Source: Beroe forskalii
Lineage: Eukaryota > Ctenophora > Nuda > Beroida > Beroidae
Assembly (NCBI GenBank): GCA_011033025.1
Contig: WFMF01000086.1
Coordinates: 248,001 to 312,000 of the forward strand
Direction: 5' to 3'
Length of the DNA: 64,000 nt
Position numbers and translations under genes: made by a program. Shown in pieces: positions 3,001 through 37,600 of the stretch. Positions within the stretch are counted from its first letter, which is position 1; each line of letters starts with the position of its first letter. Below the pieces are notes generated by a model that worked only from the letters and a program-made list of their open reading frames with translations, did no database searches and had not been told where the DNA came from.

Positions 3001-6000
3001 GTAAAAGTTATATATTGCTTCAATGACTGTAGAAGGGTCTTGGTAAGGCATGACAAATACCAAGGTGCTCCAAATTTAAGGTCACTGGAATGGCTTGAAT
3101 GTATTGAACCAATTATCAATTTTGCAACGTAACAATAGTACATAAATGTGAATTGTGGTGATACTCAAGATGATGTGGAGATGTGGCATTCTGAATCCTG
3201 AAGAGAGATCCTGTATTACTACTGTTATGCTCCTATTGAAGATCCTTCCTACTAAAGCAGTGAAATTATCATGAAATAGATAAATGACTCATTGCATACA
3301 GGACAATATTTTCTCTTGGAAATGTGTTTATTAATTAAAGTCTTGAATACCCTGAATCTTGAGCTCATTAACAAGCTACACTCTATGAAATGCGTTGTTG
3401 TCAGTAGTATTAGAATCGGAAGGTGAACTGCCAAGGTTACCTTGGCTCGTTTACCGCTTTCATGAGTGAGATTTGTCCAATCAGACTTGAACCCTGGATG
3501 TCGTGAATGACAGACCGCACAATTCTTATCCACTCAACCAAGCGCAGGATGAGGTTTTTTGCAATAAGGTTCATTTATTGAATGCCACTTCTGTGATGGG
3601 ACTGACCTTTAAATTCTTAAATTGGAGCACTTTTGCATAAATCATACCATACCAATGTATGTAGTTAAATTGGAGCACTTTTGGCATTAATCATCCCATA
3701 ACAATGTATGTACTTATGAACAGTCATTTTAGGCTTCAAATATTCCAGTCTTTTAGGGGCCCAGATATCCAGATATGTAAAAATTGCCCTTAATACAACT
3801 TGTGTGAGGTGAAAACAACAGTTTTTGGCCTATGTTTCGAGCGATTAGAGGCATAGGCTTATCAACAAGTAGTATACATGATATTAAAAATGGCCATTGG
3901 AAGTCACTTGAGTTCAAAATGAAGTTTTACGACCATTCTTTTTGGGGGCATATGTTATAGACAATTGTATAATAACAAGGCCATTACCTCATCACGAATC
4001 ATTTGAGCCCAAGACGAAGTCCATGCGACTGTCCTGGACTAAGATATGAAACTACTGCTGATCATTAACAGCTCGTGTATGGTGAAAAACAGTTTTTGGC
4101 CCAAAGGCAAAACGTTTTTCCTGAGCCATTAGGGCATATGCTCATGAAGAACTGTATAAAAATATAAAAATATCACCATTGCAATTCGTTTGAGCCCAAT
4201 ATAAGGTCTACACGACCTTAAATTTGGAGCTCCTTGTTATTTATCACACCATAGCCTGAACCCTGTACAGTCATTGAAGCCAAATATAGCCTCTACAGGG
4301 ATTCATTGATAAAAGCAATCAATCATTCAATCAATATGTCGTATACATATAAAAATGAATATTGCAATTCCCTCAAGCCCTAGATGAAGTCCCCAAGGCC
4401 CTCCAGTACCGAGATATGAAACCTCCACTGGCAATAAATGACTCATATATAATGGTGAAAAAACAGTTCTTGACCCAAAACGTTTTTCCTGTGCATTTTA
4501 GGACAAAGGTTCATGGAAAATTGCATAAAATGTGGCCATTCTGATTCGTTTGAACCCCAGACGAAGTCTCTGACTTTCCTGGACCGAGATATGAAGCTTC
4601 CCTTGATCATAAATAGCTCGCATATGGTGGAAAAATCAGTTTTTGGCCGGAAACTTTTTTTTCATGAGCATTTTAGAACATGTCTTTATGAAAAAGTTGT
4701 ATAGAAATGTGGCCATTGCGATTCTTTGAGCCCAAGATGAAGTCTCTACGACTTTTGTGGACCAAAATATGAAAATTTTTGCTGATGAATGGTTTGCTTA
4801 TGGCGAAAAACAGTTTTTTGGCCCAAAACTTTTTTCCTGTGCATTTTAGGGCATATCTTCATGAACAATTGTATAAAAACATGGCAATTGCGATTCGTTT
4901 AAGCCTCCAAGATGAAGTCTCTACGACCTTCCTGGACCGAGATATGAATTTTCAGCCTATGCGCCTGAGGGCAATTAGAAAATAGGCCCCACAGGGTTCA
5001 TAATACGTTTTTTAAATTGCGTACCTAGATGATTCTTGCTCAGAATTGAACAACAAAAGACCCTCCATCGAGAAACCCCGCGGACAACATAGCGCACACT
5101 CAACACCTCTCTGCTACTAGAGTACCGATACAATTTATTTCAAAATGATAACATACTAAAACAGTTTATGATATCACCAAGGTTTGTTTGGCAATGTTAG
5201 AATGTTCGCGGGGATTCTGTACAAAGCCTAATTGCTTGATACAAAATCACCGAAATTTAAACTGTTTTTATGGGAGTTTAACCTTGAATCAAAGCTTCAA
5301 CGAAAGGGCTGTTTCTCCATTCAAACATGCTGCTCCTATCCTTGTCCATGGTGTCCAGTAGGGACTTGAGTCTGCTGACCACACCACCACAGTTAAATGA
5401 AGCGTTTCCTAGGGATGGGTTGAATTGTTAACTTTCCTAATCAGTTATAGTCGACACCTGTTAGCAGTATTTAACTTGAAAGGGAACCGCCTTAAACGTC
5501 AATCACGATTCAATATGTTTTGATAACTTTCAAAGGCACCATAATAATATCCACTGATCTAAAGTTAATGCGATATCTTTGAGGGATAAAGAGAGTTATC
5601 ATTAATCAGTGTCAAGCTTGTCAAGCCCTAAAACAAGTCCTCAAATGGTGGCAATATATAATGAGTGTAGTGCTTTGAGAGGCATCCACCATGAAATGTA
5701 TATGGGGGCACAATATCAAACTTCATATGATCGACTCAATGATTGCAATAAATAATTCTTGGCACCGTTTGGCGTAGTCATGCGTGATGCGATATAATCC
5801 CATGAGAATTTTTTGAATCTTGGAATATACTGATTAGTGATTAGTGATTATTCTCCGGAATATTATACGAGATTCGCAGGATTATAGTACGATGAATGGC
5901 TTTAAATTTGATATTTGGAGTCAATTTTAAGTATTTTCAAAACTAAAATACTCAAAATTTTCATTGCTAAATTGCTAAAAACTAGCAAAACCCACGACCT

Positions 6001-10600: not shown

Positions 10601-13600
10601 TAGATAAGCTGCTGAATTGAATAAAACACGCTTGAATGACGCAGGCGTGCACTATCTAATATGGAACACTGGATGTTTGCCCTGCTGGTTTGCCCGATTT
10701 GTGTGTTGAAAGCTGTTTAGTTTTTAGATTAAGTTTGAGAAAGTTGTAGTGTTGATTTTCCAGTTTTGATGAAGTGTTATAGGTTAGAATTGTTCAACGA
10801 ATTTATTGAATTTTGAAATAGCTTTGTTTGAGATGATCAAATAGAAAAAGTTTTTACACTCGATGATCAATCACTGATCAATCGAAGACAGTGTGAAATT
10901 CTCCAATCTCGGGTTTTCTATCATCTTATAACGTTCTTCTAGTTCTGACCTGTTCGTGCACGGATTGGTTGAAAGCAATCATCTTGTTGAGGGTTTCTGA
11001 AGTTAAGCCAGGATGGGTAGCAGACAATACCAGCATCAAGTCATCTGCTGTCAGTGTCTCGATGTAGACCTGCGACAGGAAAGGAAACATATGTGAGATT
11101 TGTAATTTACTCATTTTCATACATTAATTCAGGTTAATCTTAATTGGATAAATTGACAAATTGGATAAATTGACAAATTGGATAAATTGACAAATTGGAT
11201 AAATTGACAAATTAGATAAATTGACAAATTAGATAAATTGAAATATTAGCGATAAATTGGGTTCGTCAAAAAATGAAAAACAAAACAAGATGATGTCAAC
11301 TTAGATCTCCAATTTAAAATGCACGTAACCTTGACGAATCTGTTGAGGAATGACTTCGGCAGCCCCTTCCTCCCCCCGCCCTGATCCACAGGGTTCATGC
11401 AGGCAATGAACCGACTCCTGCCTGCACCACTGTCTATCTTGAAGGTCTTACATAGCTCGGGAATGTAGACCTCGCCTCTGTGATCCAAACACGCGTTGAG
11501 TCCTGAAAATACGGGTTTCTTTGGAGGGCGGAATCTGGAAATAGGGAAGAGATTATAAGTTGTGTAAAATCACTAGTAGGATGCAGTGATAGAACTGAAA
11601 TTAGCATAGGATCTCGAATACCTTCTAAGACAGCCTGACTAGCGAGATTCATCTCGTCCAGGAGGACCCAGTCACCGTTCCGGAGTGCTTTGAGCAGAGG
11701 CCCGTCCCGCCACGCGAAGCCTTTACCGTTCTCAGCTGGAAGATCACATCCGAACAGGTCTGACATGTCCTGCAGCGGTGTATATGATGTATCCAAAGGG
11801 AAAATGATATGCTTGTAACTTGTAAGATTGGAAAATGTGTAAACCTCTTTGAAGATGATCGTCAGGAAAATAGTTCTAAATTAAACTGATGTTAAAAAAG
11901 GTTTTCGCACTGTGATCGAGATAGAAGTTGAGTCTAGTAAAACGTACCGTTTGCTCGGACAGGTTTATCCGTGTGAGTTTGAAACCCAGCACTGCCGCCA
12001 GTGCAGTGGTGATGCTGGTCTTCCCAACTCCAGGGTGTCCTTCGAGCAGGATCGGCTTGTCAACCTGCGGTGAGTTACTCCTGAGTCCTTATTCGAGCTA
12101 TATAATCAGGAGGTACCGTGGCTTTTTGATGGGGCAATGAGAAAACTCGCAAATTCATATTATTGAAGTTGTATAAAAGACTTTGGAAATGCCACAGAAT
12201 ATTTAATGTCAGAGTTGGAAGCTGTCCATATTCCTTCAACTGGCCCCCTTACCTGTAGCTCCCTCACAATCCTCAGTGACCCCTTACCTGTAGCCCCCTT
12301 ACAATCCTCAGTGACCCCCTTACAATCCTCAGTGACCCCCTTACCTGTAGCCCCCTCATAATCCTCAGTGAGCCCCTTACCTTTAGCCCCCTCACAATCC
12401 TCAGTGACCCCCTTACCTGTAGCCCCCTCACAATCCTCAGTGACCCCCTTACTTGTAGCCCCCTCACAATCCTTAGTGACCCCCTTACCTGTAGCCCCCT
12501 CACAATCCTCAGTGACCCCCTTACCTGTAGCCCCCTTACAATCCTCAGTGACCCCCTCACAATCCTCAGTGACTCCCTTACCTGTAGCCCCCTCACAATC
12601 CTCAGTGACCCCCTTACCTGTAGCCCCCTCACAATCCTCAGTGACCCCCTTACCCGCAGCCCCCTTACAATCCTCAGTGACCCCCTTACCTGTAGCCTCC
12701 TTACAATCCTCAGTGACCCCCTTACCTGTAGCCCCCTCACAATCCTCAGTGACCCCCTTACCTGTAGCCCCCTTACAATCCTCAGTGACCCCCTTACCTG
12801 TAGCCCCCTCACAATCCTCAGTGACCCCCTTACCTGTAGCCCCCTTACAATCCTCAGTGACCCCCTTACCTGTAGCCCCTTACAATCCTCAGTGACCCCC
12901 TTACCTGTAGCCCCCTCACAATCCTCAGTGACCCCCTTACCTGTAGCCCCCTCACAATCCTCAGTGCATTAGCAGCAGTGGTGGGAGCTCCAAAGGAGAA
13001 GCCCTCCCCTCCTGTCTCCCCTCTGCTCGGACCCCGGGAGAGACCCAACCTCCCAAAGTAGACCATGTCCCCGTGGTGTGTCAGAGAGGTGTCCATGTGG
13101 AGCTCCTCCCCCGCACACTGCTGTGTCAGGAAGGCGCGACACTGCTCCCGGAGCACTCTGTCTGACAGACCGTCCACCAGGACTAGGTGTGCTCCGTGAA
13201 GGTAACGCTGGGTTAGGGGCAGGAGGGAGGGAGAGGTTCCTGTCTGGGTTAGGGGCAGGAGGGAGGGAGAGGTTACTTTCTGAGTTAGGGGAAGAAGGGA
13301 GGGAGAGGTTCCTTTCTGGGTTGTAAGATGGGGTTCTGTCTTGTTGAGGAAGGTAGCCCAGGTGAGGGCGTCACGAACTAGGAGAGAATCAGACATGAAA
13401 AGGCTGATAAAGCACAAAAGCACAAATTATGAATTTTCTGCGATCTTATTATTAAGATCTTGGGAGACTTTCAGATGGCGTTTTGATTTCTGAGTAATAT
13501 CTTAATATGCACTGTATAAGGTGTCTCAAGAGGAATTTAAAGAGAATCTCAATCAAACAAAATCGTGATGTTACCAAATTCCTGGAGCTCACTTACCAGT

Positions 13601-16600
13601 AACTAAGTGTTTGCCACTGCCCTGCGCTCTGAACCACTCAACGAACTGTAGGATGCGTGTAGCGAGAGCATCCTCTCTGGTGACACCAGGTTGTGATGCA
13701 CGATGGAGTGGAGTTCCTGGGAGCTGTCACCCGCACTACACCAGATCTCCGTGAACCGGTTCCTCAGGGCAGGGGACAGCTGGAAGTGGGAATTATATTA
13801 GGAAGCGATCGGTTTTAAACCGAACCGTAACCGGTACTTAACTGATGTTTATGGGCTTATCGAGACGGCAAATAAAGCGAAAAAGTTAAGATTGGTAACA
13901 GATATCTTCCAATGCCCTACAACAGCTCGGAAACTGTGCACGATTAATATCGATTTGCTGCTTTGATACATCAGATCCTATTATCTCACGCCGTTCAGAA
14001 ATTACCTCTTTCTTGCCGTAGTCTCCCCCAGGATTCATGGTGGCTATCACTCTAAAGTCCTTGTGTGCTGTGATGGTCACTGAGTCACTGCTCTCAGCTA
14101 GGGTCAGCTGCCGTTCAGGCTCTAGGACACTAGGGATTGGAGATGGGGGTTAAAATTATCTTACGCTCTGATTGGTTCATTTGGTATCATATACGAGGGA
14201 GATCACATGATAGGCTGTTGAAAATTCGACCAATCCGCCAATTTTGTAATACGCCGAGTATTATTACAAATACTCGGCGTATTTTGACGCTCTGTGGGAC
14301 CTGGTCGGATCTAAAGCGGATCTGTCCCCTGTTTAGTAGTGCAGGGTAAATCAGAAATCATCCTGAGTTACCCCTCGTCAATCATACACCGTCCTTTTTT
14401 TTCGGCTTTTCGGGACTCAAAAGTGAATCAGGGAGCGTCGTTAATATGAATCAAAGTCTGCATAATATGTCTGCATATATTTTGGTACCTATTGAGTCGT
14501 TCCAGCACAGAATCGTCAGCCAATGATATCTCGTCTAGTAGGATCATGTGACCATGTTTCATGGCTTCTACTAACGGACCATCCACCCACTCGAACAACT
14601 TATCTGCCTGGATCATGATATCACATAGTAAGGTGTTAGGTGGGATAAACTGATTTCATGTTTCAATAATCGGTATTCGTTGTGATTGCAGCATTTAAAC
14701 TTTTTAAAACTCGGTTTATTAACTTACAGAGTGGTCGCGGACAGGCCTCAAGCTGCCGATGAAATCAGCGGTATCAGAGTGCATGTGACAGTTTACTGTG
14801 TGAAGCTTCAGATTCATCAGCGCTGAAAGGACCTGGAGGAGGGCACAGAATATTGGGGGATAAAGCAAAAAAAACAAAAACCTACCGACTTCCCCAAACT
14901 TGAATAAATTTGAAATTTGAATTGAAATATCGAAAAGAAATGCAAAAGATCAAAAGCAAGGAAAAACTTTAACCTTTTATCCGGTTCAATTATTTTAATT
15001 TTCTCATTGTATTAGTTTTAACACGCTGGAAGTTAATCGCACCTGGCAGATGGTAGTCTTCCCGCAGCCAGTTTCCCCAACTAGCAGTACAGGCTCGTGG
15101 AAGTGTAGACTTCGACTAACAAGGGTCAGGAGACGTAACATGCTCGGAGTCCAGACCAGACCTTCGAACTGAGGGGGGGGGATGTCAGGTGCTATCACAC
15201 GAAATTCAACGCAAGGGCCGATCTGGGGAGCTTATTTCTTCAAGTTCTGAAAACCTTTGGATTTTGTCATATTTTGTATAATAAATTACTTGATAAAATT
15301 AAAATTAGAATTAGTGTAAATTTGATGCCACATGGTATATAAACCTCACTATTTTACACGATAAACCATTCACAGTTGCCAATTCAACGATGCCCAGAGA
15401 AAAATTCAAATTGAATTTCGATGAGGAAAATGTCACTTCTTCTGCTTCTTCAGACAAATGAACTCCGTTTTCAAGAAGAAAAATCGACTAATCTAAGACA
15501 AACACAGTTTTTGAAGTTGTCTTTTGGCAAAGGTTTTAAGTGGATTGGTCATAAACTGTAGGAGGGCAGGAGGCGTTTATGAGCGAAGTCCCTGCGACTT
15601 TGCTCATACCAGCAATATAAAATGCACAGTTATATTTAAACTTATTCAGCAACGTAAACTAAACATTCATCGTTCATTCGATTCCAATGAGACATAAGGA
15701 CATAATACATGATCATACCAAGAGCATGTCAAATATCATTGAGCATAGTCAAATAAAGCATATATTCTGATCATGTCAGTGGCAATGCAGTTTGCATTGA
15801 TGCACAAAATATCCGATCATGCCAAATATCTTCTCAACACGTGTTCTAAGTTGTGACGGTTGTTACTAATCCTTGTTTCCATCCTAGCCTTCATCTCTAT
15901 TCTCTAAGCTGAAACTGTTGTCACTAGACCCTTCATTTCAACCTCTGATTGCATATTTTCTAAGCTGAGGCTGTTGTCCCTAGACCCTTCATTTCAACCC
16001 CTGATTTCTAAGCTGAGGCTGTTGTCATTGTTGTCACTCCCACCCCCGCCTGCTTCTCTGCTCCCCTCCCAGCAACTACACCCCAAATCTTCTCCCTCAA
16101 CACCTTCTTCCTTCCAATCACAATGACCGGATCCAGAGCAGCTGTCAGGATGGGAACCCACGCAAACACGATCTCCCGGGTATTAAAAGTGAGGGATCCC
16201 CACTGAACTACCCCAATAAAGAAGATAGTGAGGATGTAGGGGAGGTTCATCAGCATGACCGTGATGCAGGAGTTAAGATACTCCTCTGCGGTGGTCGGGT
16301 TCTTCTCTCTGCCAGCCAGTAACCACCCCACTGTCAGCACTGAAGACACGACTCCGGCAATACAGTGGAGGAAGTAGGAGTAGAAGCAGATGCTTTCCAT
16401 CCAACCCATGATCTGCCTCATTTCCGTCGTTACTGGTCCCAGGAACGCGTCTATAACGTAGTACGTTCCGTTAGCCCCCGCCATGTACACGGAATGTAGA
16501 CACAGGTAGATGTAGACACCATGGAGGGGAAGGTAGCTGAACGGCAGACAGATCTTCACCATTCTCGTCACAGCCAGAGCAGCCGTGATAAACTGGGAAA

Positions 16601-19600
16601 TACACCCGAAGAGACACGCAATGGGCCGGGCGTTAAGGAGGATGAAACTGGAGCTGGGGTAGAGAGTTGGACTGAGCATCATGATGGTGTAAACTAGCGA
16701 GGTAACTATGTTAGTCAGGAAGTCTCCAGGGGCGGGGGTAAGGCAAACTTTGGCAAACTTTGGCAAACTTTGGCAAACACTTTTTTTGGCAAACTCCTAA
16801 ATTTAGGGATTAATTTGCCAAAATTTGCCAAAGTTTGCCAAAAATTACATGACTTCTCAAACCATTTGTAAGAATTTTTTCACTTGAATAAGTGTCAGAT
16901 GGCAATCCAATGTATTATCTATAGACTTATCAACATTCAGAGAAACGAAAAAGGCATCAGTTAGTCATTGAGTAAAGGATCGAGGTGATCTATATTGGTA
17001 TAAAAGATTAATTTTAAACCAGGAATGTAATATATAGGCTGATAGGGTCGGGTTATGGGTGGAAAGGGGTGAGTCATGAGTCGAAAAGGATGGGTTATGA
17101 GTGGAAAAAGATGGGTTATGAGTGTAAAGGGGTGGGTCATAAGTGGAAAAAGGAGGGGTTATGAGTGGAAAGGGGTGGGTTATGAGTGGAAAACGATGGG
17201 TTGTGAGTGTGAAGGGGTGGGTAATGAGTGGAAAGGAGTGGGATATAAGTGGAAAGGGGTGGGATATGTGTTGATTGGGCTAGGTTACGAGTGAAAAGGG
17301 GTGGGTTATGAGTGGAAAGGAGTGGGTTATGAGTGGAAAGGGGTGGGTTATGAGTGGAAAGCGTTGGGTTATGGGTTGATTGAGGTGGGTAAGAAGTTGG
17401 TCGGGGTGGGTAATGCGTTGCTTGGGGTGGGTTTTGAGTTGGTCAGGGTGGGTTATGAATTGATTGGGATGGGTTATGAGTTGATTGGGGTGCGTTAGAA
17501 GTGTATAGGGGTGGATTATCAGTGGAAAGGTATGGGTTATAAATAAGCCTAACACACTCCTAAATAGGCCTATCACACCCTAATTAAGCTTATCAAACTC
17601 CTTAGTTAGTCTATCACACCCCTAAGTAAGCCAATCACACTCCTAAGTGAGCCTATCACACTCCTAAGTAAGCCTTTCACACTCCTAAGTAAGCCTATCA
17701 CACTCCTTTGTTACCCTATCGCACTCCTAAGAAAGTTTATTGCCTAGCACACCCCTAAAGCCCTTATCAAGTTAATTGAAATCCTAAGATAGCATATCAT
17801 ACTCCTGAGTAAGCCTATCACTCTCCTGAGTGAGCCAATCACACTCCTAAGTTAGCCTATCACACCCCTAAGTAAGCCTATCACACTCCTAAGTGAGACC
17901 ATCACACTCCTAAGTTGGCCTATCACACCTCTAAGTAAGACTATCACACTCCTGAGTAAGCCTATCACACTCCTGAATAAGCCTATCACTCTCCTAAGTA
18001 AGCCTATCATACCCATTATTAAGCTTATTGCACCCATTATTGCACCCATTATTAAGCTTATTGCACTTAATATTCATTGGAAGTTTTCAAATTATGTTCT
18101 TTCGCCTACAAAAAGAGGCAGGTGCATGCTGTGTACCATGTAGATATATTTATTTATTTATTTATTTCCTATCACACCCCTGAGTAAGCCTATCAAACTC
18201 CTGGGTAAGCCAATCACACTCCATAGTAATAAGTAAGCCTATCACACCCCTGACTCAGCCTATCCTACTTCTAAGTAAGTATATTGTAATTGTACTGTAA
18301 AATGATATTCAAATTCAAATTCAAGCCTATCACACTCGTAAGTAAGCCTATCACTCTCCTAAGTAAGCCTATCACACACCTAATGGCATAAGTAAGCCTA
18401 TCACACTCCTAAGTGAGCCTATCACACTCATAAGTAGAAAGTAAGCCTATCACACTCCTCAGTTACCCTATCACACTCCTAAGTGGGCCTATCACACTCC
18501 TGAGTAAGCCTACCACTCCTTAGTGGGCCTACCATACTTCTAAGAAAGCCTATCTTACTCCAGAGTTAGCCTATCACACCACTTATTAAGCTTATCACAC
18601 GCCTTAGTTAGCCTATCACACCTTTATGTGAGCCTATCAAACTCCTAAGTGAGCCAATCACACTCCTAAGTTAGCCTATTACACCCCTAAGTAAGCCTAT
18701 CACACTGATAGGAGAGCCTTTCACACTTCTAAGTAGTAAGTAAGCCTATCACACTCCTCAGTTACCCTATCACACTCCGAAGTAAGCCTTTTACACCCCT
18801 AAGTGGGCCTATCACACTCCTGAGTAAGCCTACCACACTCCTAAGTGTGCCTAACATACTTCTAAGAAAGCCTATCTTACTCCAGAGTTAGCCTATCACA
18901 CTCCTAAGTATGCCTATCAGGTTTGATGCCTATCTGGGTAAATTGAGCGATCCGTCGAGGCCAGTATCACGCCAGTATCGCGCCAGAATCAGGCCAGTAC
19001 CACGCCAGTATCGCGCCAGTATCAGGCCTACCTCACGCCGTTATCGCGCCAGTAGCGCGCCAGTAGCACGCCAGTAGCACTCCAGTATCGCACCAGTATC
19101 ACGCCAGTACCGCGCCAGTACCGCGCCAGTAGTACGCCAGTATCACGCCAGTGGACACTAACTTATAGCCAGGACGCCAGTAGCACGCCAGTTTCAGATC
19201 ATATACTGGCGTGTTACTGGCGTCCTGGCTTAAAGTTAGTTCCGACTGGCGCGATACTGGCGCGATACTGGCGCGATACTGGCGTGCTACTGGCGTGCTA
19301 CTGGCGTGCTACTGGCGCGATACTGGCGCGATACTGGCGTGATAACGGCGTGAGGTAGGCCTGATACTGGCGCGATATTGGCGTGGTACTGGCCTGATAC
19401 TGGCGCGGTACTTGCGTGATACTGGCGCAATACTGGCCTCGACGGATCGCTCAATTTTTCCCTATCTGTTAACAAGATCTGTATATACTATATTTAAGCT
19501 CATCAACAATTTGGAACAAACTGAGTGATCTTATTTCAATTTTGCAATATTTTAAGGCTTTTTTGGCAAACTATGGCAAACTTTGGCAAACACTTTTTTT

Positions 19601-22600
19601 GGCAAACTCAAAAATTTAGGGATTAATTTGCCAAAGTTTGCCTTACCCCCCCCCCTCTCCAGCAGCTAACAGCTGAAAGAGACGCCGTGTTTTGTTCCGT
19701 TGTTGCTGGTAGAAGTTGAGGAGGAAGGGGTTGAGGGTGGTTGAGAAGAAGAAGGTGGTAAGGAAGAGCAGAGAGAAGATGTAGTTGATGGTCTTGTCGA
19801 GGGTAGTGAGGATGTAGTCGGGTCCAGGGTAGGTAGTGTTGGGTGGGAGGGTGTCAGGGGTGTAGCCAAACAGATACATATCCTCCAGAAACACAAGCTT
19901 CCAGAAGATCAGCATCTTTTAGCTAAATGATCAAATAATCAGATAAATTGGAACTAACTGTGTAACTAAATTTAAGTTCAGGAGTTCCAGCCTCCTGGCC
20001 GTTAAGTTTTTTGGAATTCATAAATTTGGTTTTGTTGATTCATTGCTCTTGCCTTCAAGAAAATCCGATGTTTCATGAATGGATTATCAACGTACGAGAA
20101 TGCCCATAGTAGTAAGAAAATCGAAAACAATCGGTGACGCGGGAAATGATCAAGGTAACTGTGCACAAAATAAATCAGTTTCGGACCAAAATGCTGCGCG
20201 CAAATATTGACTACTATCCTCATATATCAATCCGTGGTATAAGACAGAGTTTGTGAAAATTTGAAGCTTTTTCATCCGAAAATCAACAAGATATAGCAGA
20301 ATCACCAAGATATGTCAGTTTCGGACCGAAACTGCCAGTTTCGGTCAAAAACTGACTTTATATGCAATATCTTCTCCATTTATGGATGAAAATATTTCAA
20401 ATTTTCACAGGTACGCTGTCTTATGCCACAAACTGTATCCATGCAAATTTTAGTATCGATTGGACATTCACCAATGGTTCTATGAGTGAAATGGTCAAAA
20501 TTTGCGCGCAGCACATTCGGTCCGAAACTGACTTATGTTGAGCACAGTTATGATTTGGGAAACTATGTTATAACCATAAAATAACTATATATTAACTATA
20601 TAATACCCATAAAATAACTATATAACAACTATGTAATGACTACATAATACCTTTATAATAACACTTCGAATGCTTAATCGAGTACGCCACTCTGCATGCG
20701 GCAATAATTCGATTTGGGCGCTCTTCTTATTCAAATAACAATGGTGCCATACACCCATGAATTATCTAAATCATTTTAACTCACCTCCCCAATGAATAAA
20801 CGGTGGTGTCGTAAGGCAATTATTCACCCCGTAAAGCAATTATTCATCATCAGTCTTCACCATGGTAATACTAATGAAGTCACTCTAAACACGCCGTTTA
20901 TGGCCTTCTTTCAGGATCAAAACCAATGGTTTTGTCGGCCTGCTTCAAACTATTATCACCGGCAAAGTTTTAATTTGCTCATAAAATTTTCCTACAGTTT
21001 TTGACCAATTCATTCGGAACATTCGGTTTGTAGTAAATTTTCAATAACGGATCTCATTTGTCAGGAGAGGCAAATGTAATGAGCAGTTATACACGAGCTG
21101 TGACACTCATACTTCCCCACCCTGGGCAACTAGGATGATGATCCTTCGACCATTTTGCAGTCTGATGTGTCTTGAAATGGATAAATGTTGAAAATTTTAA
21201 CCTTCCCATTGAACACACCTCTGGAAATCGTTGAATAGTCGGCAATGAACAGACCCGTATTTTCCTGCGCTTAAAGTACTAGCAGTGGTTTATTGTAATG
21301 AATAAAATACAGTACAAAGTTGCAACGATTAGACCAACTCATGTCTCTGTGTTATGAATAATTTATATATAACGTGCTGGCCATCACTTCGACTGAATAG
21401 ATTAAATTGAGGGTATGAATGATATTTTCCACCCCATGAATATAAGGAACTAACACTTTTACTCTTGAAATCTAACGCCACCAGAGAGCCATCGTAGAAG
21501 GTATCGTTGTTAATCTTGCGCTTGAAGACGGATTCGAGAACGCTCTTGATCGTTTCCTCTTCTTCGGAACGTCTTACTTTACCGGACAGCAGCATGAAAC
21601 CTATGACGCCAAAGTCAACCACTCAACGGTAACTTTATTAAACAATTCACAAAAGATTAACATTCAACGCGGAGAATTTTCACTAGACTTCAGAAGGATA
21701 ATCCCGAGGGATGTATCCAGTTTAGGCCAAAGGGCCAAAGTCAGCATGGTTTCAAACCAACATAAAATACCCGATCAGCAGACGCCAAAGTAAACGTTAG
21801 AGATCAGTTGAAAGAATGCACAGATTTCATTGAAAAATTTCATGAAAAGCAAATTACAGCATTGCATGATCAGGCAAGTGTCTATATATTATGGTTTTTT
21901 TTCGACGGGTTCTATCGATGGATCCAGGGGTGTTATAGGTGCGTAATCGTCTATAACCACATGATTCTTACCATCGTTAGCGAGAATCTGATCCCAGTCT
22001 CTGACAGTGTCCGCCTCACTTAGTCGGTACCGGTCAGCCCATCTGAAGAGATCGCGGAGGGTGATGAGACCGTGTCTGCCCGCAAACACACCGGACTTCG
22101 TCCTGTTGCTCTGAGGGGAATGACTTTTTCAATATAATTGCAAACACTCCAGACTTTTGTCCTGTTGCTCTGATGGGAATGACTTCAATAATTGCAAACA
22201 CTTACAGTCTCGCCCACTGTTAAGCCCCCTAAGATCGATGGGTGTCGAAATGATTACAATTCCCGCGTATATGCAAGGGACTTTCTTATCACTTTATCAG
22301 TCAATTGACAGCAAAATTCCCCTGACCCCCAGTCCCCGTTTTTTACTTGATAGAAATGGTAAGTGTCCGTTTATGGGAGGATAAAGCGATCATTTGTGGA
22401 CAATATGAATAAAGGCTTTATTTCAAATTCAATATATTATCAATATCACACATAAATTGGTTTCGATTAACGTCCATACAATGATACATTTGACATGAAT
22501 AACTTAAATAGATTTGATAAAATACAAATCTGACTAGATACTGTCTCGATAGCTAAAAGTGAAAAAACAACTTTATTTACTATTTCATTACTTTCATTCA

Positions 22601-31600: not shown

Positions 31601-34600
31601 TTGAAATATAAATGTAAGGGTGAAACTGCAGATGGGTTTTCACTTTTCTGGGTGATTACCAATGAATTTGAGAGCTCGACAGAGAGTCCGGATGCTGTAA
31701 CAGGGCTTGTGACCCAGCCCATCTGTTAGACTCTGGTCTGCTTGTCTTCTTAGCTCAGTGTACAGAAACACCTGAAATAATGAGGACTTGTATTACAGAC
31801 CTAGACTACTGATAACCAAAAACGTCTAGTTTTTTGTTTTCTTAGAAAATCATCGTTCAAAATCATTCGTAATTCGTGTTAATGGTATTGATTCACAAAA
31901 GATTGCCAATTGTTTTTAGAAGATCACGCTTCGAATGGACAGGGCGAAGGAACTCACTATCTTAGAAATAAGTGCAGAGGGCAGGTTGAGATGGTGTAGG
32001 TAAGCTGCAGTCAGGGTCCTCAGATCATTCTCATCTGTCACCTCGTCAACGTAGATCTCAGTGAATCTGTTAAAGTTTAAAATCAAAGTGTAAAAATAAC
32101 AATTTTACAAAGGAATTAGTGCAGTCAGGCAAACAATATTTCAAAAGAAGACGGAACAATCAATATAAGGGGTAAAATACAAATTTAACTCACCGATTCT
32201 TGATTCCAACAGGCAAGTCTCTTTTCCCCACATCGGTCGAAGGGTTCATAGCCGCAAATAACCGGAAATTAGGGTGCTTTTTAACCATGTCCATCTGCCT
32301 GTAGGGTAACCCGGTATGAAAATCAAAACGCTAATGTATCCTGATACGCAGAACTGTTGTACGGTGTACATCCGTAAATTCGTGTTCCTTCGGATAAATC
32401 CAAAGAACACGAATTAACGGATGTACGACAAGTGGGTAGTTGAAATGCCGTATCGTGATAAAATATCTGTATAACTGAGATAAATCAAATTGTTGGTCCA
32501 TGACGAACCCTGATTCGACCACGAGAAACCCGGAGTCATCCAGGATTCCGTTCAAACTCTCCAGCAGCTCGGAGGGAGCCAAGTTGATCTCGTCCAGTAG
32601 AACCCAGTCCCCACGTCTCACGGCAGATACAAGGGAGCCCTGGGAGATGGTTATAGGGGCTAGGATATTTCAGAATGTCAAATGTCCAAGCTTAGCCATA
32701 TCTAAGATTGAAAAAAGCAGGGGAAACAGGAAGATTCTTCTTTAATTTTGATCAGCGAATTGTTTCGTCTCAAGTTCTGAACGGTGATGATTTAAAAATC
32801 CGCCACAATTACCTCAACGAAGGTGAAGGCGAAGGAGTCCTCGATCTGTTTGATCTGTTGACTGAGCTTCTCCAGCTCGTGTCTGAGTCGTATCCAGGCC
32901 TTGGTGCTCATCTTCCTGCTAATGTGGAGCATTGCTTGTAGTAGCGTGGTCCACTCCTTCTGACGCCAGCAGATCTGATGGGGTTACCATGGTAAGACTG
33001 GTACAATTGCTTGCAGAGGGGGTTACAGTGGTAAGACTGGTACAATTGCTTGCAGAGGGGGTTACCATGGTAAGACTGGTAATATTGCTTGCAGAGGGGG
33101 TTACAGTGGTAAGACTGGTACAATTGCTTGCAGAGGGGGTTACAGTGGTAAGACTGGTACAATTGCTTACAGTGGGGTTTACAGTGGTAAAACTGGTAAT
33201 ATTGCTTGCAGAGGGGGTTACCGTGGTGAGACTGGTACAATTGCTAGCAGAGGGGGTTACCGTGGTAAGACTGGTACAATTGCTAGCGGAGGGGGTTACA
33301 GTGGTAATACTGGTACAATTGCTTGCAGAGGGGGTTACAGTGGTAAGACTGGTCAAAATGCTTGCAGAGGGGGTTACAGTGGTAACACTGGTACAATTGC
33401 TTGCGGAGAAAGATTCGTGGGTTCGAAGCAATTCGGAATTGATCACATTGCTGTATGGATGAAAATGGAAGACAGAACCTGACAAGACGTCAAAGGACTA
33501 AATTTGACAAATTCCCAAATTAGCATAATCATAATATGGATTATGATATAAGGTATAACTTACCTGTACTTTCTTGAGGAAGCCAGCATTCTTTGTCACA
33601 GAGAACGATTCTTTGAAGAGAAGTTCAAATGACTCGTAGATTGGTTTCATTAGCTGGATTACGTCTTGTGGCTTGAACCTGTGTGGAAAAGCTGTGTTTG
33701 TGGAAACGTCGAGGACTGAGGAAAGAGGGAGCTGGACGTTTTGAGCATTATTTGTCAGGAATTTCGGCAAAAATTAAGGGATTTTTCAATATTGAAGTAA
33801 TTGTATGGCATGTGGGTTTGTCTTACCCGCCGATAAGATCAGATGAATCACTCTGCTGGGACATGTTGATGACGACCAGATTGTTACCAGTTCTTGCTGC
33901 CAAGTGTTGTACCGACGCCGTCTTGCCATTTCCTGTTACATGGCAGTCTGTCAGATCACATAGCAAACAAATAAACACAGCCCCTCCCTTTGCCTTCAAT
34001 CATGCAACAGTATAGCGTCGAGAAAACTTTTCCTAACTATGAAATTTCACTTTCTCCCTTACTCATAAGCTCATAATAGGATTTAGTTATTTCTACCTTA
34101 GCTCATCTCCCTACCCCTCCAAATGTCACCCCTTCACCCTCTTGTTAACCCCCATCCTCTTCAATCCCCTCCCCCCTCTCACTCACCCCTTGCCCTCCCC
34201 ACTCACTTGTCCCCCCTCACTCACTTGTTCCCCCCTCCTCACTCCCTTGTCCCCCTCACTCACTTGTCCCCCCTCCTCGCTCACCAGTTCCCCCTCCTCA
34301 CTCACCAGTCCCCCTTCTTCCTCGCTCACCAGTTCCCCCTCCTCACTCACTTGTTCCCCCTCCTCACTCACTTGTCCCCCCTCCTCACTCACTTGTCCCC
34401 CCTCCTCACTCACTTGTCCCCCCTCCTCACTCACTTGTCCCCCCTCCTCACTCACTTGCCCCCCCTCCTCGCTCACCAGTTCCCCTCCTCACTCACCAGT
34501 CCCCCTTCTTCCTCGCTCACCAGTTCCCCCTCCTCACTCACCAGTTCCCCTCCTCACTCACCTGTTCCCCTCCTTCCTACTCACCAGTTTCCCCGGTCAG

Positions 34601-37600
34601 TAGGACAGGTTCCCCGTGTACCACAGCACACCCCAACTTCTCCAGCAGAACCAAGGAATGCCGGGTTTGCGCATATACCTGAACAAACAAACTTTCATTT
34701 TAATCAGAAAGCTAAGAAAATATCAATAATCTAAAGTATTGTATTCACATCTGTTTAACAATTCATGGCATCCTAGACTTCATTCTGAAAATTCATGTTG
34801 ATGCAAAATAGATTTTATCTTAATACTTATAATTCTTCAAGCTTTTATGTAGAGTCTAGCAATACAAATGTAATTTGACCATATAGATTCTAATTATTAT
34901 GTTTCTCGTCAACTCAGATCACCTGTTCCGGTGTATTGGAGGTGGGTGTGGCTGATGGTAAGGTGCACCTCCCCACTGAGTAGTGAGTGGGGGACAATAC
35001 CACTGTCGGCTGGTAACACTTCAGGTAGCTGTCCACTTTGGAAAGAGTGATGTCATTACTAGGGGTAAGAATGGAGAATTGATGGCGTCCAAGCACACAT
35101 AGTTGCTTTTGATATCGAACTTCGAAGCAAATTAGAGCCAAGTGTTTCCATCTTGATTTGTGTTGAGAGCAGGTTGGAGCTTATTGTATCTAGATTATAG
35201 TTTTGATGGACGGGTAATTTTGAAGAAAACTAGTTATATTTTGTGATACAAAACGTACTTTGGTTCTAGGTAAGCTGAGGAAAGCTCCGATCTTGTGAGC
35301 TGTTTCATTCCTCTTGTCTTGGGAGGACTGCCAGCTGCAAAAGCAATCAACTGCCTCCAATAGTCAATACGTTAAACAATAGTCAACTGCCTGCAATAGT
35401 CAATAAGTTAAACATCGTGATACCTTATCTGTAAACGTCGGTAAATATGCAACTGAAAACACACAATTACTAGCTGATGGGGCTTTTGTAAAATTGTTGA
35501 AAAACAGATCTTGTTCAAATAAAAAGGGCTGAAAAGCGTTTCACCTCCAAGAAGACTTCCTTAGTCACAACTGTCAGGTTATGCGTGAGGTGTCCTTGGA
35601 TTCTAGTAGACCTGAGCGTATGAGGGTTCAGAACATTAAAAGTATCGTTTTAAGGTATTTTTGACTTATTAACAGAAAAATTAAAATTGAAACAGTTTGC
35701 AAGTAAAAAGTATTTGTTTCCTTCCGGAGCAAAAAGCACCCTGTTTACTGAATCACAGTGAGATTTAAACATAAGCTAACCCATGAAACATGGATCAGTT
35801 GTACCCAGGATTATCCGCAATCCAAAGTAATAATAATCGACATTTGACAGTCTAAAGTAATAAATCTCGCAGTCTAAGCATTAGACCATCTCATGAGCTG
35901 CCTCAGGGATCGGTGAGAGAGTGAGTTGTAGAGGTTGACGAGGCGTTCCGAACAACCAGACAAACTTGGGAACTTGCCACAAATCACCTGAATTTTGCGT
36001 TCGAATTAGGAACTATCGCGGAAATTCGGATACACAACAATGTGAATTGTGAATCCATTAAGAGCATGACTCACACTATCAAATATTACTCCTAATATGT
36101 CGCGGGAAAAACGTCAAATTATTGCTTCCCTTTTGTGTCTTTGTGAACTTTTTGATTGGAATACTACTTCAGATGTGAAGGGGTGACCATAATCAAGGAT
36201 GTCGAACAAGGGTCACAATTCTCAGCCGTACTCGATTTTAGAGTTGTCACTTTAATAAAGTAGGTTCTTTAAAAAAGTAGATTAGGTTCAGATTGCGATG
36301 AACTTGGGACATTAAATTCTTTATCGAAAAGGGATGAGTTATGAGCTGCAAAGTAGAATTTGTAAATTTTACCATCCTCGTCTCGGCTCAGCTCGAATTG
36401 GAGCGAGTCTTTTGACGTTTCACTTCTTCGGGGCAGAAAGAGAAGTATATATTGACCTGTTTGAGTTGAGCATCGTCGTAAGGGCTGAGTTTGACCAGGG
36501 AGAAGGTGTTGTCCAGCATGGTCAGGACGGGGTTGTAGTGGTAAGTGAACTCGCCTTCAGTTACCCTGGTGATATTATGGGGCCGGGGTCAGCGACCTTA
36601 TTAATGATAGTAGGATGTGGGGAAGAAGTGATTATAGGATGAATCATTATATGAATTGGACGTATGATATTTTTTGTTTCGCCTATTGTCACCATGAATC
36701 ACCTTGATTAGATGGGGGTTGGGACATTTAAACTCGATATTCGTACCTTTGGGTAAGGAATATCTTGAAATTAGGGTGTATTGATAAGCGGCTGGAGGGA
36801 GTTTGAATCCGTCTCGTCTCAATCACCGACTTTATCAGGGATATCTGAAAAAACCATGTTAACTTGACCTAAGAACGACGGAAACCATGACCATGGAACT
36901 GGCGCTGAAACTTCACGAAGTCTCATGTCTGTCCAAAAAGTGGTGAATTTGGTCATATTTTGCACTCACTATATAGGAGTAAGATTTAAGTCCGAATCCA
37001 CCCTATTTTAGCACTCACAATATCGGAGGGGGCGTGGTCGATGTCCTCGAATATGATCCATTTTCCGGACACTGCCGCCCTGCTGAGGAGCCCAGGCTGC
37101 CACACGTACTGCCCAGGTACCTCCGAGCACACGTAGCTACCTATCAAAACCTAGGGGAAGAAGAGGTGGAGAGGGTTGAAATAAGTTGAAAGGGTTTAAA
37201 TAAGTTGAAAGCGGGAGTGATAGATATGTTGAAAACTTGAGTGTTCGACATTTCTCCTCACTTATTTATGAATCCAGAATAGGTAAAAGAGTAAAAAGTC
37301 CGTGACACTTTTGCTTCTTCAAAACAATCAGTTTTCATCCAGAACAACCTATCTATTTCAAAACAAGGCCTGTGCGGGGTGTACAGTACCTTACTGTCGG
37401 TCTGATCGTCTACTTGGACTGACAGCATGTCACCCTCATTAATTCCAAACATCGCTCCCACATGCTCCAGCAGAGTAGTTTTCCCTGGGACACCGGGAAG
37501 CGTTATTTAACATATTCAATTGTTTTCTGAGGTGGTTGTTGTTATGTTAATATGAAGTGTGGGGACTTTGGGAGGTTTGATACTGCGTACGAGCCATGCG

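Follow-up and report, generated by a model that had tools for sequence, protein, structure and literature searches.

What appears to be a cut-and-paste type DNA transposon, filled with minisatellites, lies within the single coding exon of a putative rhodopsin-like receptor gene of the ctenophore Beroe forskalii and probably inactivates it, so that the gene would be a loss-of-function allele created by a fairly recent insertion rather than an exon that has gained a clean new intron. The element was studied in a window of 64,000 nucleotides (the whole stretch of DNA analysed, to which the coordinates in Table 1 refer). In the course of events that we propose, an element with no visible transposase gene would have entered the exon, duplicated 6 bp of it (7 bp by the cut of the original prediction) and parted TM1 from TM2. 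Transcripts crossing the element should be truncated, either reading E-G-G-G-stop if it is retained or stopping after 93 residues if its GTAAGG is joined to the first AG, and it is from this truncation that we infer loss of function.

Table 1. Features of the transposon and its host receptor gene in the window.
Feature	Position	Strand	Remarks
Target duplication, left copy, TCTCCA	16723..16728		7 bp, to 16729, in the original cut
Target duplication, right copy, TCTCCA	19656..19661		7 bp, to 19662, in the original cut
Transposon body, 2927 bp	16729..19655		Sequence reading; many genomic copies
Left terminus: GGGGCGGGGGTAAGG, followed by GGCAAACTTT repeats that fold back on TTTGCCAAA repeats	16729..16843	+
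Right terminus: G10-TAAGGCAAACTTTGG on the minus strand	19562..19655	-
Internal array, 21-bp unit GGGTGGGTTATGAGTGGAAAG	17045..17540
Internal array, 21-bp unit TAAGTAAGCCTATCACACTCC	17540..18919
Two inverted 11-bp arrays (18960-19152 and 19245-19437) forming a long hairpin	18960..19437
Candidate donor GT (GTAAGG, after nine retained G)	19645..19646	-	Motif reading
Candidate acceptor AG in duplicated target, after CTTACCCCCGCCCC (branch-point-like CTTAC plus pyrimidine tract)	16724..16725	-	Motif reading
Receptor coding part 1: ATG 19915-19913, residues 1-86 up to ...LFQLLAAG	19656..19915	-	Open frame to junction
Receptor coding part 2: GDFLTN... to TAG stop 16010-16008	16008..16728	-	ORF 16008-16796

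Direct rereading of the sequence bore out the earlier description of a 2.9-kb element with inverted ends that splits a receptor exon. The left TCTCCA copy is followed by GGGGCGGGGG-TAAGGCAAACTTTGG and the right copy is preceded by GTTTGCCTTA-CCCCCCCCCC; read inward, both ends consist of a G-run and then TAAGGCAAACTTTGGCAAAC, the run being GGGGCGGGGG at the left and G10 at the right. In direct orientation the right terminus also resembles the left subterminal stretch, of which it is a near-copy (95%). The target duplication is present as described, and its length depends on the cut, being 7 bp if read as TCTCCAG (the length first given) or 6 bp if read as TCTCCA; under the 6-bp cut the left terminus is 10 nt long (GGGGCGGGGG), not 9. 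An Rfam scan of the window gave no match. Elsewhere in the window, a different repeat with a palindromic stretch of ~300 bp and at least 146 reported matches, on both strands, occupies 20155-20552 upstream of the receptor, and the long open frames of short tandem repeats at 12160-12972, 32908-33497 and 34043-34734, which are open in several frames, are probably minisatellites.

When the outer flanks are rejoined they meet in frame as LLAAG-DFL, the very empty site that had been predicted, and give a receptor of 324 codons; coding part 1 closes with the upstream copy of the duplication, whose 6 bases read TGGAGA on the coding strand, and coding part 2 opens with the 6 bases of the second copy. 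Neither coding part contains a stop, which fits a recent insertion but would fit a working gene as well. The hydrophobic stretches of the joined receptor, judged by eye from its hydropathy profile, are consistent with seven spans, and the insertion point falls between TM1 and TM2, one codon ahead of an Asp that is conserved in all three aligned sequences (the window gene and its paralogues on contigs C758 and C936). Both paralogues, that on C936 being intron-free, are uninterrupted through the insertion point. At two further motifs the alignment reads TRM/TRL/ARY and LDPVI/LDPLI/VNPII, and these positions are named here after the motifs of rhodopsin-like receptors: TM2 Asp, DRY-like and NPxxY-like. 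Although no Pfam family matches the receptor, hydropathy and paralogue alignment agree in suggesting that the host is a rhodopsin-like seven-span receptor gene. Comparison with the nearest paralogue, that on C758 (65% over the larger match), gave a dN/dS of 0.15 (dN 0.28 and dS 1.87, near saturation, over 296 codons), so the receptor lineage was constrained.

Introns are found near this point in other paralogues: C758 has one of 193 bp (L118, C758:254457-254649) 18 codons downstream of the insertion point, which is absent from the window gene and C936, and two C666 paralogues (L119-L121) share one about 5 codons upstream of it. Neither coincides with the insertion point. The C758 intron was considered as an introner and set aside, since at full length it matches only itself (single copy).

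The termini were read against the splice consensus motifs for donor, branch point and pyrimidine tract. Read along the coding (minus) strand, the element begins with G10-TAAGG, and an AG lies in the downstream copy of the duplicated target at 16725-16724, both as first reported, so splice-like motifs are present at the two ends: GTAAGG at the 5' end, and CTTAC, a pyrimidine tract and AG at the 3' end, where CTTACCCCCGCCCC is followed by CTGGAG. Such motifs suggested an introner, that is, an element spliced out as a new intron whose donor comes from the terminus and whose acceptor comes from the duplicated target, its G run really being 9 or some other frame-keeping length. Their splice-like look can be traced to the single inverted terminus, whose G-run plus GTAAG is a donor on one strand and, read the other way, is CTTAC plus a C-run, a branch-point-like motif with a pyrimidine tract; GGGGTAAG reverse-complemented is CTTACCCC, and by this symmetry the ends are intron-like in both orientations without any adaptation.

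The predicted products fit an introner poorly. Retention of the element is predicted to give ...LLAAGEGGG-stop, a protein of 90 residues whose stop is the TAA of the terminus, while splicing from GTAAGG to the first AG should leave a net +10 nt, which is the one-base frame shift already recognised in the original prediction, and a stop after 93 residues. The second and third downstream AGs likewise fail to give an open frame. The proposed rescue by a run of nine G holds as arithmetic (+9), but it would insert Glu-Gly-Gly (EGG) beside the conserved TM2-like Asp, and the argument that nine is the length at the other terminus depends on where an ambiguous boundary is drawn. Added codons do occur among introners, one case in Aureococcus gaining 12 bases (Gozashti et al. 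2022, PMC9860276), and run length varies within the family (below); even so, we consider a frame-keeping introner improbable at this site. Splicing might also occur and still destroy the receptor, through an out-of-frame or TM2-deleting product. The same motifs would serve, and the fourth AG (+65), the nearest in-frame acceptor, would give a 310-residue frame without 17 residues around TM2; on the other hand, the splicing of an insert of 2.9 kb that carries long hairpin arrays need not be efficient, and this outcome seems possible but rather unlikely. Inactivation of the receptor, with predicted stops at 90 aa (element retained) or 93 aa (first AG used), is the better of the two readings that the original prediction offered.

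The element is a DNA transposon that has no visible transposase gene and belongs to a numerous family. A 23-base terminal pattern (GGGTAAGGCAAACTTTGGCAAAC) has 124 forward and 132 reverse exact matches in the 216-Mb genome, and the reversed-pattern control has none; a genome search with the whole element gave at least 226 matches, internal arrays included. The copies studied comprise 31 with both ends (29 fetched copies, L009-L037, the window copy, L001, and L004) and 80 one-sided flanks (L038-L117), together 111 sites and 142 flanks, sampled from a family whose 256 terminal matches correspond to some 130 copies or more. A duplication of at least 6 bp flanks 29 of the 31 two-ended copies, so other copies do carry the termini and duplications that the original prediction expected of them. 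The best duplication length found by script was 6 bp in 16 copies, 7 in eight, 8 in four, 9 in one and none in two (L016 and L027), several of the 7-9 bp values including a G or C that may be part of the terminal run. These termini and duplications at independent sites, together with the empty site of L017 (below), fit a TIR DNA transposon. Misjoining of the element into the exon during assembly is conceivable for a sequence repeated in the genome, but is made highly improbable by the junctions themselves, where the target duplication is perfect and the inverted ends are complete, as at 29/31 two-ended copies.

The terminal runs have a characteristic length. Among interrupted ends, 80/89 are exactly 4+1+5 (10 nt), the interruption being A in 57 and C in 23. 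The 53 uninterrupted runs range from 7 to 15 nt (7 nt in three, 8 in two, 9 in eight, 10 in 16, 11 in 15, 12 in five, 13 in three and 15 in one); 10 is thus the commonest length, and 9, the run length proposed to keep the frame here, is present (8/53) but is not the norm.

The interiors are minisatellites, with 21-bp and 11-bp units in the window copy and periods of 21 to 63 bp in L024, and low-complexity frames predominate in the delimited copies scanned. No transposase-like frame was recognised by eye among frames of at least 90 aa in delimitable copies. Frames of 311 and 335 aa inside L027 and L029 had no convincing Pfam match, and by eye only they are LINE ORF1-like; the L027 frame scored best against an unrelated herpesvirus family, at that family's cut-off, and this was taken as chance coiled-coil similarity. 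A KDZ family search found no match, but its controls likewise found none, so it is uninformative on superfamily, and a literature search with the terminal repeat string gave no match. At L026:1460-1500 a family copy sits inside an 11-bp array resembling that within the window element.

The original prediction proposed searching for further copies inside coding exons. For each junction the adjoining open frame was extracted in all six frames (852 frames at the 111 sites), and the 82 of these that reached 38 aa and were of moderate complexity were scanned against Pfam. Matches were found to a Sep15 exon (L066), a reverse transcriptase, RVT_1 (L063), RNase H (L109) and an Ig domain (L047), and longer pieces of L020 also matched RVT_1; several of the sampled insertions are thus in transposon genes (L020, L063 and L109). 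By eye, L099, L089, L034, L044 and L102 also appear to be transposon genes; L099, L089, L044 and L102 had no Pfam match, and the assignment of L034 to a Helitron combines reading by eye with a Pif1 2B match that is weak (E 0.0039) and falls short of its cut-off. At L066 the residues nearest the junction lie outside the Sep15 domain, and we read the element as sitting in an intron. Clearly host-like coding exons were found at two of the 111 sites, the window receptor and L017, with L052 an ambiguous third (a 170-aa frame without a Pfam match that could be exon or intron). The search therefore turned up one further clear exonic copy and no gathering of copies in exons; exons that leave fewer than 38 aa at the junction would be missed, and for that reason no depletion from exons is claimed. 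Gene content, which includes Sep15, Siah-interacting protein, Ig and 7tm domains, points to an animal.

Two copies adjoin host splice sites. One has entered a splice donor (L028:1480-1500 and 4850-4870), its target duplication TAAGTG lying within GTAAGTGAG and a GTAAGT donor being rebuilt upstream; the other (L047:531-675) ends 12 bp before the acceptor of an Ig exon (TACCTGTTTCAG), for which its terminus may serve as branch point and pyrimidine tract. Two such copies in 111 may be chance.

Neither of two counts across the family favours introners. An AG occurs within six bases beyond the element end in 31 of 142 flanks, where 38.3 are expected from nearby sequence, and the net length is a multiple of three in 11 of 56 copy-orientations (28 of the 31 copies), the other two classes having 24 and 21. 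Neither is enriched; most of the net-length sites are non-coding, so that this count probes a built-in target preference, not selection. With no sampled copy shown to be an intron made in an exon, two (possibly three) of 111 copies exonic, no enrichment of AG or of frame-keeping lengths, and a shifted frame in the window, the introner claim is unsupported, and the mechanism originally put forward (donor from the G/T-rich terminal repeat, acceptor from the target duplication) is weakened, though possible. A broader version would make the terminus a symmetrical splice cassette, so that, whichever way the element inserts, a chance AG would suffice for its removal and slippery G-run length would set the frame; the family would then be an animal proto-introner in which run-length changes switch genes off and on. 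We think this very doubtful.

The second exonic copy, L017 (L017:1-7132, contig C192), interrupts an uncharacterised gene that rejoins to a 286-codon frame. A 99% identical copy of the gene on C242 has an uninterrupted 286-codon frame, and another on C269 (85%) has 284 codons. The C242 stretch (L122, C242:130880-131130) is an empty site with a single AGTAAA, and its flanks are identical to those of L017 at 41/43 and 204/208 positions. An empty site, such as the original prediction suggested looking for, exists for L017; for the window allele, a search with the upstream flank found the coding part matched by the window only, the other matches being a repeat. Splicing of L017 to the first AG is predicted to leave a net +13 with an in-frame TAA. 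The second AG (CTACAG) would keep the frame and replace K-L-Q by G-G-G, which makes L017 a better candidate than the window element for a spliced copy, and L017 with its uninterrupted near-copy provides a natural test within the genome.

Among known systems, the element resembles the non-autonomous TIR DNA transposons (MITE-like or minisatellite-bearing), with which it shares inverted termini, a short duplication, many copies, the lack of a transposase-like frame in the scanned copies and insertion into genes of other transposons; it differs from them in its poly-G 10-nt ends, one usually interrupted, its large 10- to 42-bp internal arrays and its 6- to 8-bp duplication, which could be assigned to no superfamily. 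Polinton/Maverick elements make a 6-bp duplication, like that seen here, but none of the seven DNA_pol_B_2 matches in the genome lies near the termini listed, the nearest on shared contigs being ~70 kb (C364) and 118 kb (C913) away, and this candidate was rejected. For introners, Gozashti et al. 2022 (PMC9860276) give family medians of 30-654 nt in length and report them from only two animal groups; a subset carries TIRs and duplications, some draw one splice site from the target duplication and one adds 12 nt. The present element is like the TIR/TSD introners of that account in its inverted termini, target duplication, donor motif in the terminus and AG in the duplicate, and differs in its length (2.9 kb), which argues against an introner, in showing no exon enrichment among the sampled sites and in the frame shift that canonical splicing would cause. 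Were it spliced, it would add to the few animal examples of DNA transposons turned intron; otherwise it is a clear if ordinary example of an exon holding a transposon whose ends look like splice sites, and can serve as a control for introner claims, for which splice-site-like termini alone are insufficient.
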